A DNA stretch of 64,000 nt, from NCBI RefSeq assembly GCF_019357495.1, contig NZ_CP079110.1:1178001-1242000 (forward strand). Direction: 5' to 3'. Below the pieces are notes generated by a model, which ran no database searches, was not told the origin of the DNA, and saw only the letters and a list, made by a program, of their open reading frames with translations. This DNA is from Nosocomiicoccus ampullae (GTDB taxonomy: Bacteria; Bacillota; Bacilli; Staphylococcales; Salinicoccaceae). Below are positions 40,608-46,490 of this stretch, in pieces (positions within the stretch are counted from its first letter, which is position 1; every line of letters begins with the position of its first letter). The position numbers and the translations under genes are program-made.

Positions 40608-41243
40608 CTAATACTTATGCTTCATATAGAATAATAGCGCCTGCATTTCAACGCTTAAATCTATGTTATGTACAGTTACTTTCTCTGATACTGCGAGTTT
40701 TTCTGGCGTAAAGTTTAGAATACCTTTAATACCATAGGACTCTATATCATGTGAAAGCTCAACACCAACTTGACCAGGTACAGTTAAAATCGCTATTTCA
40801 GCGTTGATTTCTTTAATTACAGATTCTAATTCACTAATATCTATAACTTCAACACCATTAATTGTACTTCCGACAATTTCTTCGTCTATGTCAAAGGCAA
40901 CTGCTATATTTATTTTATCATGAATTTTTGTAAAATTATAGTTAAGTAATGCACTACCTAAATTACCTGTACCAATTAAAATAACATTTTTAATACCGTT
41001 ACCTTGGACTTGTTCAGAGAAAAACTTAACAAGTGCTCGGACATTATATCCGTAGCCTTTTCTACCAAGCTCTCCGAAGTATGAAAAGTCACGTCGAATT
41101 GTTGCGGAATCTATATCAAGTGCTTCACTAATTTCACGTGAAGACACGCGGTCGACACCATTTTCTTCACTTTGCTTAAAGAATTTGAAGTATAAAGGCA
41201 ATCGATCTAATGTCGCGTTAGGAATTTTCCTCTTCTTTAACAA
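40608..41243 (-). CDS. rex: Redox-sensing transcriptional repressor Rex
   Basis: About 211 residues from a TTG at 41243, which follows SD GAGGTGAG; an in-frame GTG at 41252 lies within that SD. Winged-helix DNA-binding domain (1-80: ATLDRLPLYFKFF, SREISEALDIDSATIRRDFSYFGELGRKG) and a Rossmann domain with GTGNLGSAL that binds NAD(H). Represses fermentative/anaerobic genes when NADH is low. First gene of rex-tatA-tatC. Confidence 0.95.
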   Translation of the reverse strand: MLKKRKIPNATLDRLPLYFKFFKQSEENGVDRVSSREISEALDIDSATIRRDFSYFGELGRKGYGYNVRALVKFFSEQVQGNGIKNVILIGTGNLGSALLNYNFTKIHDKINIAVAFDIDEEIVGSTINGVEVIDISELESVIKEINAEIAILTVPGQVGVELSHDIESYGIKGILNFTPEKLAVSEKVTVHNIDLSVEMQALLFYMKHKY

Positions 41244-41367
41244 AAGACTCACCTCATAATTATTGTCATTTAATTATATCATACAATTTTGTATGTTTTA
41301 GGATTTTTCATCGTATTTTTAATAGATTACATGATACACTACACTTACTAAGAAAGAGGGATTACAT

Positions 41368-43281
41368 ATGATTGTCATGAGTTTACAAAACATCCAAAAG
41401 AACTACGGTTCGACCGAGATTTTAAAAAATATTAGTTTAGAAGTGAAATCGAGAGAAACAATTGGAATTGTCGGTGGAAATGGTGCTGGAAAAACAACGT
41501 TAATGAAAATTATGGCAGACGAATTATCCTATGATGGCGGTCATATATCTACTCCAAAAGATATATCGATTGGTTATTTAACACAAGAAATGTCTTTAGA
41601 GTCAGATAAAACCGTATTAGAAGAAATGAACCTCGCATTTAAAGACGTATTAAAAGCAAAAGATGATATCGACGAAGTTACAAAATGGTTAACAGACCAC
41701 GAATATACGCATCCTGAATATGAAGAGAACGTCAAACGGTTAGAGTACTTACAAAACTTTTTTGAACAACATAACGGATATACAATCGATGTTGAAATTA
41801 AAACAGTAATTACAGGACTTAACTTTTCTTTAGAAGACTTACATCGCCCAATTAGTGAATTCTCTGGTGGGCAAAAAACTCGCCTTCAACTTGGAAAAAT
41901 GCTTTTATATCGCCCAGATATACTACTACTCGATGAACCAACGAACCATTTAGATTTAGAAACTGTTGAATGGTTAGAGAAATACTTAAATCGTTATACG
42001 GGATCAGTTGTTGTGATTTCACACGACAGATTTTTCTTAGATAGAATAGTAGATAAAATTTATGAGATTGAATTTAATCAAGGTACACTATATCTCGGTA
42101 ATTACACAGATTATCAAAATGAAAAACAAAAAACATACGAACGTCAATTAAAAATGTATGAGCGCCAACAAAAAGAAATCCAAAGACTTGAGGACTTTGT
42201 AGATCGTAACATTGCACGTGCTTCAACGAGTGGGATGGCAAAAAGTAGGCGTAAAATGCTTGAACATATGGACCGAATCGATTCACCAACACGTGACACG
42301 AGACAAGCAAAGTTCCATTTTGATATTGAAAAAGAAAGTGGAAACGATGTTTTACGAGTGAAAGATCTCGCAATTGGTTACGATAATGTGTTAAACGAAA
42401 AGTTAAACTTCTTTGTGGAAAAAGAAGATCGATTACTTGTTCTAGGGCCAAATGGTATTGGTAAATCGACATTAATTAAAACGATTGCTAAAAAGTTACC
42501 AAAACTCGGAGGCGAGATTACGTACGGGACAAATGTTTCAATCGGATACTATGACCAAAAACAAGCAGAGTTTTACTCTAGAAATACGATATTAGAAGAA
42601 TTATGGAAAGAATATCCACATTTTCAAGAGCAAGACATTCGTAAAATACTCGGTCAATTTTTATTCACACAAGACGATGTCAATAAGCATGTCTATCAGC
42701 TAAGCGGTGGAGAAAAAGCGAGAATTCAACTCGCAAAACTAATGCTACAAAAAAATAACTTATTACTACTCGACGAGCCGACAAACCACTTAGACATTCA
42801 AAGTAAAGAGATGCTCGAGTCAGCGTTGATAGATTATCCAGGCACTTTAATCGCCGTATCACACGACCGTTATTTCATTAAAAAACTCGCTAATCGCATT
42901 ATGGAGATGGATGTTAATAAAACTAAAATTATTAACGGTGATTATGAATATTATGTTCATAAAAAAGAAGAAGAAAATGCTCAGCTATTATTTGAGGATA
43001 ATAAAGACGAACATGTAACAAACGATGATTACGAAAGACAAAAAGAGCGCCGTAGTATTATGCAAAAGCTATCTAGAGAAGGAGAATCGCTAGAACAATC
43101 CATTGAAAAAATCGAATTAAAAATTGAAACAATTGAGACAGAAATGACAGACCCAGAAGTTTTCAACGATTTTGAAAAGGTAAACGAATTAAATGAAATG
43201 TTAAATGAACTCAAAGAGAAACTTGAAGAAAAGTTATCCCGATGGGAAGAAATAGAGTTAGAGCTTGCAGAATTTGAATAG
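41368..43281 (+). CDS. ABC-F family ATPase (YdiF type)
   Basis: 637 residues, soluble, two ABC domains without membrane segments. First: GGNGAGKTT, FSGGQKTRLQLG, LLLDEPTNHLD. Second: GPNGIGKST, LSGGEKARIQLA, LLLDEPTNHLD. A linker helix pair (about 245-290) and a C-terminal coiled coil (about 545-637) are typical of YdiF/Uup proteins. ABC-F proteins act on ribosomes; antibiotic resistance cannot be claimed. SD AAGAGGG. Divergent from rex; the stop codon abuts a DnaA-box cluster. Confidence 0.92.
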   Translation: MIVMSLQNIQKNYGSTEILKNISLEVKSRETIGIVGGNGAGKTTLMKIMADELSYDGGHISTPKDISIGYLTQEMSLESDKTVLEEMNLAFKDVLKAKDDIDEVTKWLTDHEYTHPEYEENVKRLEYLQNFFEQHNGYTIDVEIKTVITGLNFSLEDLHRPISEFSGGQKTRLQLGKMLLYRPDILLLDEPTNHLDLETVEWLEKYLNRYTGSVVVISHDRFFLDRIVDKIYEIEFNQGTLYLGNYTDYQNEKQKTYERQLKMYERQQKEIQRLEDFVDRNIARASTSGMAKSRRKMLEHMDRIDSPTRDTRQAKFHFDIEKESGNDVLRVKDLAIGYDNVLNEKLNFFVEKEDRLLVLGPNGIGKSTLIKTIAKKLPKLGGEITYGTNVSIGYYDQKQAEFYSRNTILEELWKEYPHFQEQDIRKILGQFLFTQDDVNKHVYQLSGGEKARIQLAKLMLQKNNLLLLDEPTNHLDIQSKEMLESALIDYPGTLIAVSHDRYFIKKLANRIMEMDVNKTKIINGDYEYYVHKKEEENAQLLFEDNKDEHVTNDDYERQKERRSIMQKLSREGESLEQSIEKIELKIETIETEMTDPEVFNDFEKVNELNEMLNELKEKLEEKLSRWEEIELELAEFE

Positions 43282-43360
43282 TTCTCCACAAAATCTTTTA
43301 TATTTTACACAAGTAATCCATAAGTTATGCACAGAGTTATCCACAGCTGTGTATAACTTT
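43282..43360. promoter_or_regulatory. DnaA-box cluster downstream of the ABC-F gene
   Basis: Three perfect matches to TTATNCACA: TTATGCACA (43325-43333, plus), TTATCCACA (43337-43345, plus) and TTATACACA (43348-43356, minus). Two one-mismatch boxes precede them: TTCTCCACA (43282-43290) and TTTTACACA (43303-43311). The outer boxes can pair as a hairpin followed by TTTTTTATTTT, so the same segment may also end the ABC-F transcript. Confidence 0.7.
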
Positions 43361-43425
43361 TTTATTTTGATTTATTCTATGTATTGGATCGGTGGTGACA
43401 CGAGAGATTTAGATGGTTTATTGAT

Positions 43426-43633
43426 TTATCGGAAGTGATAGTGTGATTTTCTACTATCTCTTTCGTTAGATTGTCTTTTATCGTAAGTTATAGTGTAGTT
43501 ATACACTATCTTTATAGTTAAACGCAATTTTATCGCAAATGATAGTGTACTTCTATACTATCTCTTTGGTTAGACTGCTTCTTATCATAAGTAATAGTGT
43601 ACTTTTCTACTATCTTTTCTGTTAGACAACTTC
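43426..43633. repeat. Tandem repeat, 4 x 52 bp
   Basis: Units begin at 43426, 43478, 43530 and 43582 (each TTATCG/A...), exactly 52 bp apart. Each holds a dyad close to ATAGTGTA-N4-TACTATC, then a CTTT-NNGTTAGA-like segment. In unit 2 the dyad is almost perfect (TAGTGTA/TACACTA). No ORF. It fills the gap between the convergent ABC-F and CAP genes; units differ at several positions, so the array is not newly made. Confidence 0.8.
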
Positions 43634-43670: not shown

Positions 43671-43709
43671 AAAAAAAGATTCTACTCCTGATATATCAGA
43701 AATAGAACC
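43671..43709 (-). terminator. Terminator of the CAP-domain gene
   Basis: Imperfect hairpin (outer TTCTA/TAGAA, inner CTGATATATCAG) at 43681-43706 followed on minus by TTTTTTT. Confidence 0.7.
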
Positions 43710-43720
43710 CTTCATATTAC

Positions 43721-45334
43721 TTATTTACTTTCTTTACGTCTTCTTCCTGTTAGGAATAGCCCAAGTCCTACAAATAGCGCTGTAATACCATAAATTAAGC
43801 CTTTTTGATCCATTGCTTCACCAGTATTTGGTAACTCACTTTTATCATTTGATTCTGTCTTCTCAGCTACATTTGATTGCCCCTCAGATTTATCGACAAC
43901 TTTTGAATCAGATTTATCAGTAGTAGATGAATTACCCTTATTCCCTTCACTTGCTACTTTACTATTATCTTTAGTGTTAGCAGGTGGTGTAGTTGAATTA
44001 TCTTCTTTGTCAGTCTCTAAATCTTCGTCTAATTCTGAATTCTCTTCATTACCATTCGTATCTTTTTCTACTTTAGACTCATCTTGCTCTGTCTCATCAT
44101 TTTGGTCTTCTGATGTTGCTGGTGATTGGTTTTCTTTATCAGATGATTCTACTTGTTCTGAGTCTTGTCCTTTATCAGTTTCAGAATTTTCTGGAGATGT
44201 AGTAGATTCAGATGAATCATCCTTATCTGTTTCATCTGGTGCTGGTGATTGATTTCCTTGATCAGGTGATTCTACTTGCTCTGAATCTTGTCCTTTATCA
44301 GTTTCTGGATTTGCTGGAGGTGTAGTAGATTCAGATGAATCATCCTTATCTGTTTCATCTGGTGCTGGTGTTTGGTTTTCTTGATCAGATGATTCTACTT
44401 GTCCTGGCTTTTCCTCTTTATCAGTTTCTGGGTTTGCTGGAGGTGTAATAGATTCAGATGAATCATCCTTATCTGTTTCATCTGGTGCTGGTGTTTGGTT
44501 TTCTTGATCAGATGATTCTACTTGTCCTGGCTTTTCCTCTTTATCAGTTTCTGGGTTTGCTGGAGGTGTAGTAGATTCATCTGGTTGTTCAACTTTTTCA
44601 TTACTATTATTGACTTTTTCTGGGTCAATATCTTCTGCGTTATATGATTTATCGTATGATTCTAAAGAGTTGTGATAAGTAGGCATACCACTTTCATCAA
44701 AACTAGCATTATCTTCTAAAATTTTCTTACGTTTTTCATAATCATCTGCGAAAACTTGAACTCCATACCAAGTAACTTTACCATTATCCTCATGACGATA
44801 AGAACCGTAGCCCATATCAGTTCTACTTGCTAACATATTCTCGTTATGACCTTTAGAATTTCTCCAACCATTAAACGCATAAACATCAAATTCTTCTTGC
44901 GTTAAATCACTTTCTACTTGATAAATATTCTCAGCAATGTAACCATCGTAATCAGCGTCAAACTCTCTCTCGTCACCATATCTATTCTCATATTGTTGTG
45001 TAACTGTTTGACCATCTGGCGTATTATGAGTGAAGTAACCCTCTTGTGCCATATTTTGTGCTTTCCAATTCGCAAAATCTGTTAATTGATTATTATTCTC
45101 CACAGGAACGTCATTATAATCACCGTAACCATCTGGTTGTGTTTGCTCAGCTCTATGGTTATTTACCCAATCTACCATTTCATCATCTTGCCAATTATCT
45201 TCGCCAACTTCGTTTGCTTTCGCAACAAATTCCGACGATAAGTTTGTGATATCTTCAGATACAGGTAAATGTCCTCCACTAATTAATAATGCCGCCGTTG
45301 CTGATGATACTAACATTTTCTTTTTAAACGTCAT
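43721..45334 (-). CDS. CAP-domain LPXTG surface protein with 41-residue repeats
   Basis: 537 residues. Signal peptide (about 1-22), CAP/SCP-like domain (about 50-195: MVDWVNNHRAEQ, ENIYQVE, GWRNSKGHNENMLAS, TWYGVQVFA) with the conserved His and Glu residues, then acidic 41-residue repeats (about 255-420), a Ser/Asp/Lys-rich stretch, and LPNTG (501-505) with hydrophobic helix and RRRKESK tail. Sortase should anchor it to the wall with the CAP domain displayed on a stalk. Bacterial CAP proteins have unsettled roles. Monocistronic. Confidence 0.88.
   Translation of the reverse strand: MTFKKKMLVSSATAALLISGGHLPVSEDITNLSSEFVAKANEVGEDNWQDDEMVDWVNNHRAEQTQPDGYGDYNDVPVENNNQLTDFANWKAQNMAQEGYFTHNTPDGQTVTQQYENRYGDEREFDADYDGYIAENIYQVESDLTQEEFDVYAFNGWRNSKGHNENMLASRTDMGYGSYRHEDNGKVTWYGVQVFADDYEKRKKILEDNASFDESGMPTYHNSLESYDKSYNAEDIDPEKVNNSNEKVEQPDESTTPPANPETDKEEKPGQVESSDQENQTPAPDETDKDDSSESITPPANPETDKEEKPGQVESSDQENQTPAPDETDKDDSSESTTPPANPETDKGQDSEQVESPDQGNQSPAPDETDKDDSSESTTSPENSETDKGQDSEQVESSDKENQSPATSEDQNDETEQDESKVEKDTNGNEENSELDEDLETDKEDNSTTPPANTKDNSKVASEGNKGNSSTTDKSDSKVVDKSEGQSNVAEKTESNDKSELPNTGEAMDQKGLIYGITALFVGLGLFLTGRRRKESK
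44083..44575 (-). repeat. 123-bp tandem repeats inside the CAP gene
   Basis: About four units of 123 bp encode a 41-residue repeat (core ETDKEEKPGQVESSDQ, then APDETDKDDSSES). The first two units are nearly identical and the last two have diverged. Such in-frame repeats can gain or lose units by slippage or recombination. Confidence 0.85.
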
Positions 45335-45440: not shown

Positions 45441-45475
45441 AAAAATAAAAAACACATCAGAATTACTGATGTGTT
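45441..45475 (-). terminator. tsa operon terminator
   Basis: 10-bp stem AACACATCAG/CTGATGTGTT (45451-45460, 45466-45475) with a T-rich exit on minus; overlaps the tsaD stop codon. Confidence 0.83.
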
Positions 45476-46490
45476 AATATACTTCTTCAATCTCTATATA
45501 GTTTTGTCCATTTAAATTTAAATCTGCGAAGTCTCCGCGTTTAAACTGTTCATACGCAACCGCTCCGATCATCGCTGCATTGTCAGTACAATATTTTAAA
45601 CTTGGAATATATAGCTCTATATTATTCTTTTTTGTAAGTGTTTCAAATCGCTCTCTTAATGCACTGTTTGCTGCAACTCCTCCTGCAATAATAAGTGTTT
45701 CTATATTTTCGTCTTTTAATGCACGCATCGTTTTTGTTGTTAATACATCAACTACACTCTCTTGAAAACTTCTAGCAACATCTGCTTTATTGATTTCGAT
45801 GTTTTTCTGTTTTTCGTTATGAAGTTTATTGATGACATGTGATTTTAGGCCACTAAAACTAAAGTTATAACTATCATCTTGAAGTGCACGTGGAAAATCA
45901 TACGTATCTTTTCCTTCTTTTGATAATCTATCGATTTCTGGACCTCCTGGATACGGTAGTCCTATAACTCTCGCAACTTTATCATAAGCCTCTCCGACAG
46001 CATCATCTAAGGTTTCACCAATTACTTCAAAATCTAAATGATTGTTCATCTTTATGAGCTCTGTATGTCCACCTGAAACGATTAATGAAATAAGTGGAAA
46101 TTTAATCTTATGCTCGAGTTGATTCGCATATATATGTCCGGCAATGTGATGGACTGGAATTAGTGGTAAATCGTGTGCGAATGCAAATGCTTTCGCTGCA
46201 TTAACCCCAACAAGTAATGCACCTATTAACCCTGGTCCATATGTTACTGCGACTGCATCGAGTTCTTTTGCTGTAAGGTTAGCATTCTTTAGTGCTTCTT
46301 CAATGACACGAGTAATCATTTCAACATGGTGTCTTGAAGCAACCTCAGGAACTACACCACCAAAACGTTTATGACTTTCTATTTGGCTTTGTACGACATT
46401 TGATAGTACTTGATTTCCATTTTCAATAACACTTGCTGCTGTTTCATCACAACTCGTTTCAATCGCCAATATTTTAATATTTTTCTCCAT
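45474..46490 (-). CDS. tsaD: tRNA t6A threonylcarbamoyltransferase TsaD
   Basis: 338 residues. Transfers the threonylcarbamoyl group to A37 of ANN-decoding tRNAs, with TsaB and TsaE. Motifs: [14 protein letters not shown], metal-binding [21 protein letters not shown], and [20 protein letters not shown]; the start overlaps rimI by 17 nt. Last gene of tsaE-tsaB-rimI-tsaD. Confidence 0.97.

Follow-up and report, generated by a model that had tools for sequence, protein, structure and literature searches.

The gap directly 3' of the ydiF orthologue in Nosocomiicoccus carries a tight cluster of boxes for DnaA, the initiator of chromosome replication. We consider it probable that this site is the local orthologue of the Bacillus subtilis gcp/ydiF cluster, an extra-oriC DnaA-binding region that would lower the level of free DnaA, and that its boxes double as the terminator of ydiF.

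A cluster of perfect DnaA boxes lies 3' of ydiF

We analyzed a 64-kb stretch of DNA (the window) from a genome of 1.55 Mb in two contigs (G000), in which dnaA is at position 1 of contig C1. The boxes and the genes around them are as follows; positions are those of the window unless a contig is named.

40608-41252, minus strand: rex
41368-43281, plus strand: ABC-F ATPase gene (NF000355, ribo_prot_ABC_F), the ydiF orthologue by its position beside rex and near tsaD
43282-43290, plus strand: weak (one-mismatch) DnaA box TTCTCCACA, directly past the ydiF stop codon
43303-43311, plus strand: weak (one-mismatch) DnaA box TTTTACACA
43322-43368, plus strand: candidate intrinsic terminator of ydiF (stem, loop and T-rich tail)
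43325-43333, plus strand: perfect DnaA box 1, TTATGCACA, the left arm of the hairpin
43337-43345, plus strand: perfect DnaA box 2, TTATCCACA, inside the hairpin loop
43348-43356, minus strand (inverted): perfect DnaA box 3, TTATACACA, the right arm of the hairpin
43721-45334, minus strand: CAP/LPXTG-type surface protein gene (CAP-like domain, LPNTG-type C-terminal anchor)
45474-46490, minus strand: tsaD (gcp), convergent with ydiF (TIGR03723, 453.6 bits)
C1:1341-1424: box group in the dnaA-dnaN gap (oriC)
C1:1549043-1549265: box group in the rpmH-dnaA gap (oriC)

The original prediction, made from the window alone, named three perfect TTATNCACA boxes within 32 bp and two one-mismatch boxes just 5' of them. 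Indeed, the three perfect boxes lie at 43325-43356, two direct and one inverted, and the weak ones start at 43282 and 43303. The window holds 8 perfect boxes versus 4.3 expected, and 89 boxes with at most one mismatch versus 99.7 expected; because it is not box-rich overall, only the clustering is unusual. One-mismatch boxes by themselves mean little because their total is at the chance level, and their large number in the window was rejected as a signal.

Genome-wide there are 77 perfect boxes, and groups of at least three occur in only four places, namely the two oriC gaps, the rlmH region and the ydiF 3' gap. By a Poisson estimate, a genome should contain 5e-5 box triples spanning up to 32 bp, or 8e-4 if spans up to 100 bp are allowed. 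The ydiF 3' gap thus holds several consensus boxes in about 250 bp, outside oriC and beyond chance. An Rfam search of the site gave no significant match, and comparison with plasmids gave weak, short matches only.

The gene order is tatC-/tatA-like genes (identified by reading their translations), rex, the ABC-F gene, the cluster, the surface protein gene, tsaD, rimI, tsaB and tsaE, which, minus the surface protein gene, is presumably the B. subtilis arrangement. The cluster had been placed between the ABC-F gene and the tsaD operon; it does lie directly 3' of the ABC-F gene, but the surface protein gene and a repeat array intervene before tsaD. The site thus directly follows the 3' end of ydiF and faces that of tsaD, which is next but one because of a single inserted gene. 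This gene is missing in the sister genome G017, in which tsaD directly adjoins the cluster. TsaD is 94% identical to that of Candidatus Nosocomiicoccus stercorigallinarum, the closest named relative.

The inserted segment is itself repetitive. The surface protein gene carries a 123-bp tandem repeat (44117-44579), and the interval between it and the cluster holds an array at 43425-43627 in which a 52-bp unit containing the hairpin ATAGTGTAnTTnTnTACTATC occurs four times in tandem; the 64-kb window contains no further copy of the unit (0.27 expected by chance). A strong hairpin with a T-run at 43674-43713 on the minus strand is the likely terminator of the surface protein gene.

The second extra-oriC group consists of four perfect boxes just before rlmH (C1:33760-33847; locus L005, 1501-1588), between a metallo-hydrolase gene and rlmH, and it is the only other extra-oriC cluster of at least three perfect boxes in the genome. 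We take rlmH to be the gene known as yydA in B. subtilis. The yydA region, a strong DnaA-binding region of B. subtilis (PMC4447404), has its counterpart in this four-box group, and it differs from the ydiF/tsaD site in being at another locus, upstream of a gene and not between 3' ends.

The cluster is conserved across families

To follow the cluster in relatives we read the sequence past the 3' end of the ydiF orthologue, taking 31 genomes from the same family, 20 others from its order and 40 from its class; for tsaD, the 3' side was read in 30 genomes. A cluster was scored as present if 250 bp held at least four boxes with at most one mismatch, including two or more perfect ones. Families carry analysis labels, of which f1 is the own family and f3 is inferred to be Staphylococcus-like.

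The gap position, expected from the original prediction to be a conserved one, carries the cluster in 31/31 genomes of f1, in 14/15 of f3 and in many more distant families (1/1 in f2, 8/8 in f6, 3/3 in f16, 4/5 in f24, 2/2 in each of f12, f13, f21, f29, f31 and f35, and 1/1 in each of f7, f40 and f43); comparison of the boxes with those of relatives, proposed at the outset as a check, thus finds them conserved. This makes 15 of the 23 families sampled, and because genomes of one family are related and their counts not independent, we give more weight to the count of families than to that of genomes. By the same rule the cluster was absent from eight families, f4 (0/4), f18 (0/2), f28 (0/2) and the single genomes of f8, f11, f34, f36 and f38. 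A cluster 3' of tsaD also occurs in one f37 genome, outside the 23 families, and two further f7 genomes, read on the tsaD side, have none within 1 kb of tsaD. Permuted consensus words under the same rule gave 12 positives in 5460 trials (0.2%), and the gaps of the three genome sets held 116, 44 and 61 perfect boxes versus permuted-word means of 0.7, 0.4 and 0.4.

In relatives, the gene to the right of the cluster is usually tsaD. Where genes are inserted between ydiF and tsaD the cluster mostly remains 3' of tsaD (f13, f21, f24, f29, part of f12, and G033), and it adjoins ydiF in the single f7 genome for which both sides were read. Scans of complete genomes showed three recurrent places for closely spaced direct pairs of perfect boxes: the surroundings of oriC; a point 27-37 kb from dnaA, which we take to be the rlmH site; and ydiF/tsaD. 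A fixed distance from oriC was rejected, because in complete genomes the interval between dnaA and the site varies from roughly 10 to 38% of the genome. Because the same cluster stands beside the same genes in most of the Bacillales-type bacteria examined, we regard it as an old replication-control site.

Within the genus, box 2 and the weak box at 43282-43290 are unchanged in all three species, box 1 is found in all three with A or G as its N base, and the weak box at 43303-43311 is kept in G018 and changed in G017. With three perfect and two weak boxes, the cluster is smaller than in most other genera, which usually have 7-12 in total, and DnaA binding here may be weaker for this reason.

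The cluster is missing from the locus in G057, of staphylococcal type, and in G171, of family f24, so it is dispensable. In G057 (C1:2458012-2461176; loci L074 and L132), which is Staphylococcus-type, ydiF and tsaD are still neighbours and the cluster is lost, a natural deletion. Its sole close direct pair of perfect boxes sits 37 kb from dnaA. Relocation of the G057 cluster, considered after a match to the 15-base motif RYGTTCNNTNTTGAC at C1:615730, was rejected: the region there has no cluster and the match is a chance one.

The perfect boxes form a predicted terminator

The hairpin and T-run pointed out in the original prediction were also recovered. The 13-bp stem (43322-43334 and 43347-43359) encloses a loop at 43335-43346 and has a stability of -15.1 kcal/mol (z = -4.6 versus shuffles); it is followed by TTTTTTATTTT and a T-rich tail at 43358-43368. 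A stable stem-loop with a T-run at once after it, 3' of a gene, is what an intrinsic terminator looks like, and we infer from its sequence that transcription would end here. A generic terminator scan did not list the hairpin, the scan having a loop limit of 8 and the loop here being 12. In the three Nosocomiicoccus-type genomes it is the sole candidate for a ydiF terminator, at -14.6 kcal/mol in each. Boxes 1 and 3 pair at their free N position as G.U in G000, A-U in G018 and G-C in G017, which is one position in three species only.

We scanned 13 relatives from other genera for terminators at this place. Eight had a candidate, none of them over a perfect DnaA box and one overlapping two weak box matches; in the other five the scan gave no candidate. 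A terminator had been named at the outset as a competing or additional explanation of the boxes. The second half of this stands for Nosocomiicoccus and the first does not, because the relatives tested have boxes without a terminator built of them. One sequence in this genus therefore appears to serve both as a predicted DnaA site and as a putative terminator.

The B. subtilis counterpart suggests a role in holding DnaA

The gcp/ydiF region of B. subtilis is reportedly among the oriC-proximal clusters of Okumura et al. in 2012. The B. subtilis box cluster near gcp (tsaD) and beside ydiF that the original prediction invoked, as a site that titrates DnaA, agrees with a list by Smith and Grossman (2015) in which region 4, given as 'downstream of gcp; downstream of ydiF', is one of eight that bind DnaA with high affinity in vitro (PMC4447404). 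Region 4 has 10 predicted boxes in 300 bp and Kd values of 0.15 uM for ATP-DnaA and 0.33 uM for ADP-DnaA, and at 55 nM the recovery of its DNA was 16-fold higher with ATP-DnaA than with ADP-DnaA (PMC4447404). Deletion of six extra-oriC clusters in B. subtilis caused early initiation, which was partially relieved by re-insertion of one cluster (PMC5295017, PMC13220808).

The site studied here shares with the B. subtilis region its place past the 3' end of ydiF, towards tsaD (gcp), and its cluster of TTATNCACA boxes, and homology of the two is supported. The two differ in box number (10 predicted in B. subtilis, five here including the weak ones), in the terminator hairpin that the boxes also form here and in the CAP/LPXTG-type gene inserted here before tsaD; moreover, high-affinity binding has been measured in B. 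subtilis, whereas here it is predicted on the B. subtilis model.

By analogy with B. subtilis, DnaA would occupy all three perfect boxes, direct and inverted, cooperatively, their spacing being about one helical turn, and DnaA bound at the site would leave less free DnaA for oriC. The replication fork would double the site some time after initiation, once it has travelled the 330 kb (21% of the chromosome) that separate the site from oriC. Nosocomiicoccus would have a cluster reduced to three strong boxes and two weak ones, with box 1, box 2 and the inverted box 3 making up stem, loop and stem of the putative ydiF terminator. A gap sealed by this terminator would spare bound DnaA from transcription, as suggested for datA.

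Weighing other explanations

The site might be only the intrinsic terminator of ydiF, with a palindrome that resembles inverted DnaA boxes by accident. Its 13-bp stem and T-run would suit this explanation, as would a hairpin kept at -14.6 kcal/mol in all three species though the N base of the boxes varies (A-U, G-C, G.U). However, box 2 lies in the loop, where no box sequence is needed, yet is identical in all three species; the same gap holds up to 12 boxes in relatives, whose terminators, where found among those tested, overlap no perfect box; and a terminator has no requirement for TTATNCACA, seen in 15 families. We give this explanation very little credence. Still harder to accept is a role of bound DnaA in regulating transcription of ydiF or the opposing gene. 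DnaA is a transcription factor and most other B. subtilis clusters sit upstream of genes, but both neighbours end towards this site, as they do in B. subtilis, promoter-like sites in the gap are not in excess (1 found versus 3.7 expected), and neither gcp nor ydiF is in the DnaA-regulated gene sets quoted in PMC8203912.

It also seems unlikely that, beyond holding DnaA, the cluster alters the nucleotide state of the protein (by recharging it or by hydrolysis of ATP-DnaA) in the manner of E. coli DARS and datA. Like our site, datA, DARS1 and DARS2 are non-coding box groups outside oriC; they set initiation timing, as ours is predicted to do, and datA is likewise intergenic and would be disturbed by transcription. 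The arrangement of two direct boxes and one inverted box recalls the DARS core of three boxes with one end box opposed (PMC5742627), a likeness by orientation pattern alone, and its 11-12 bp spacing recurs in five families. However, the E. coli elements have other neighbours, and datA and DARS2 need IHF (DARS2 also uses Fis), whereas B. subtilis has no IHF, datA or DARS (PMC13220808), and its gcp region prefers ATP-DnaA while DARS prefers ADP-DnaA. The lack of IHF and the preference for ATP-DnaA in B. subtilis make such an action less likely, and we retain the B. subtilis-type DnaA-binding cluster as our reading of the site.

A LexA-like motif follows the boxes in relatives

The cluster of many relatives ends in a triad of two direct boxes and one inverted box at 11-12 bp spacing, of which we counted 36 in the gaps of five families; in the window the spacing is 12 and 11. 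The inverted box is directly followed by (G/A)(T/A)AC-RNRY-GTTC, usually then by NNTNTTGACA, in the other f1 genera, nearly all f3, most f6 and f40. Loci L072, L044 and L092 (3' of ydiF) are examples of the LexA-like palindrome AC-RNRY-GTTC after the terminal inverted box. The LexA consensus of B. subtilis is CGAAC-RNRY-GTTYC, which the inner motif fits as a sequence, its left half being imperfect. Full CGAAC-N4-GTTCG sites occur elsewhere in several of these genomes, in some of them no more commonly than a reversed control. Many genomes of the own family have extra GTTCG half-sites flanking the cluster on both sides. In Nosocomiicoccus the LexA-like motif is lost and the T-run is in its place. 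A promoter for a conserved transcript, suggested by TTGACA past the motif in relatives, was not supported because, as read by eye, TTGACA came without a consistent -10 at the right distance.

These features might mark the tsaD/ydiF cluster as a compound control element of ancient standing in Bacillales, in which the triad leads directly into a LexA-like operator (AC-RNRY-GTTC), in many cases with TTGACA at a constant distance, and not as a loose DnaA sink. The operator would be shared by the remaining f1 genera, by the Staphylococcus-like f3 and by two further families, and in Nosocomiicoccus it would have been lost while the triad was turned into the ydiF terminator. We put this forward tentatively and with some doubt; if true, such an element would link DnaA availability to the DNA-damage response.

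Significance

The site belongs to the known B. subtilis type of DnaA-box cluster, with the merger with a terminator as its local twist, and what was unexpected is the depth of conservation and the LexA-like motif in relatives. The literature cited here treats the clusters as a B. subtilis matter, and that species was considered to have no single cluster with a strong effect on timing (PMC5295017). We found no earlier report of the conservation of this cluster in a literature search that left Ishikawa 2007 and Okumura 2012 outside its range. Conservation at the same place in about 15 families argues that the cluster is under selection. Together with its natural losses in G057 and G171 and its natural rebuild in Nosocomiicoccus, it offers a comparative set for the study of initiator titration outside B. 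subtilis.
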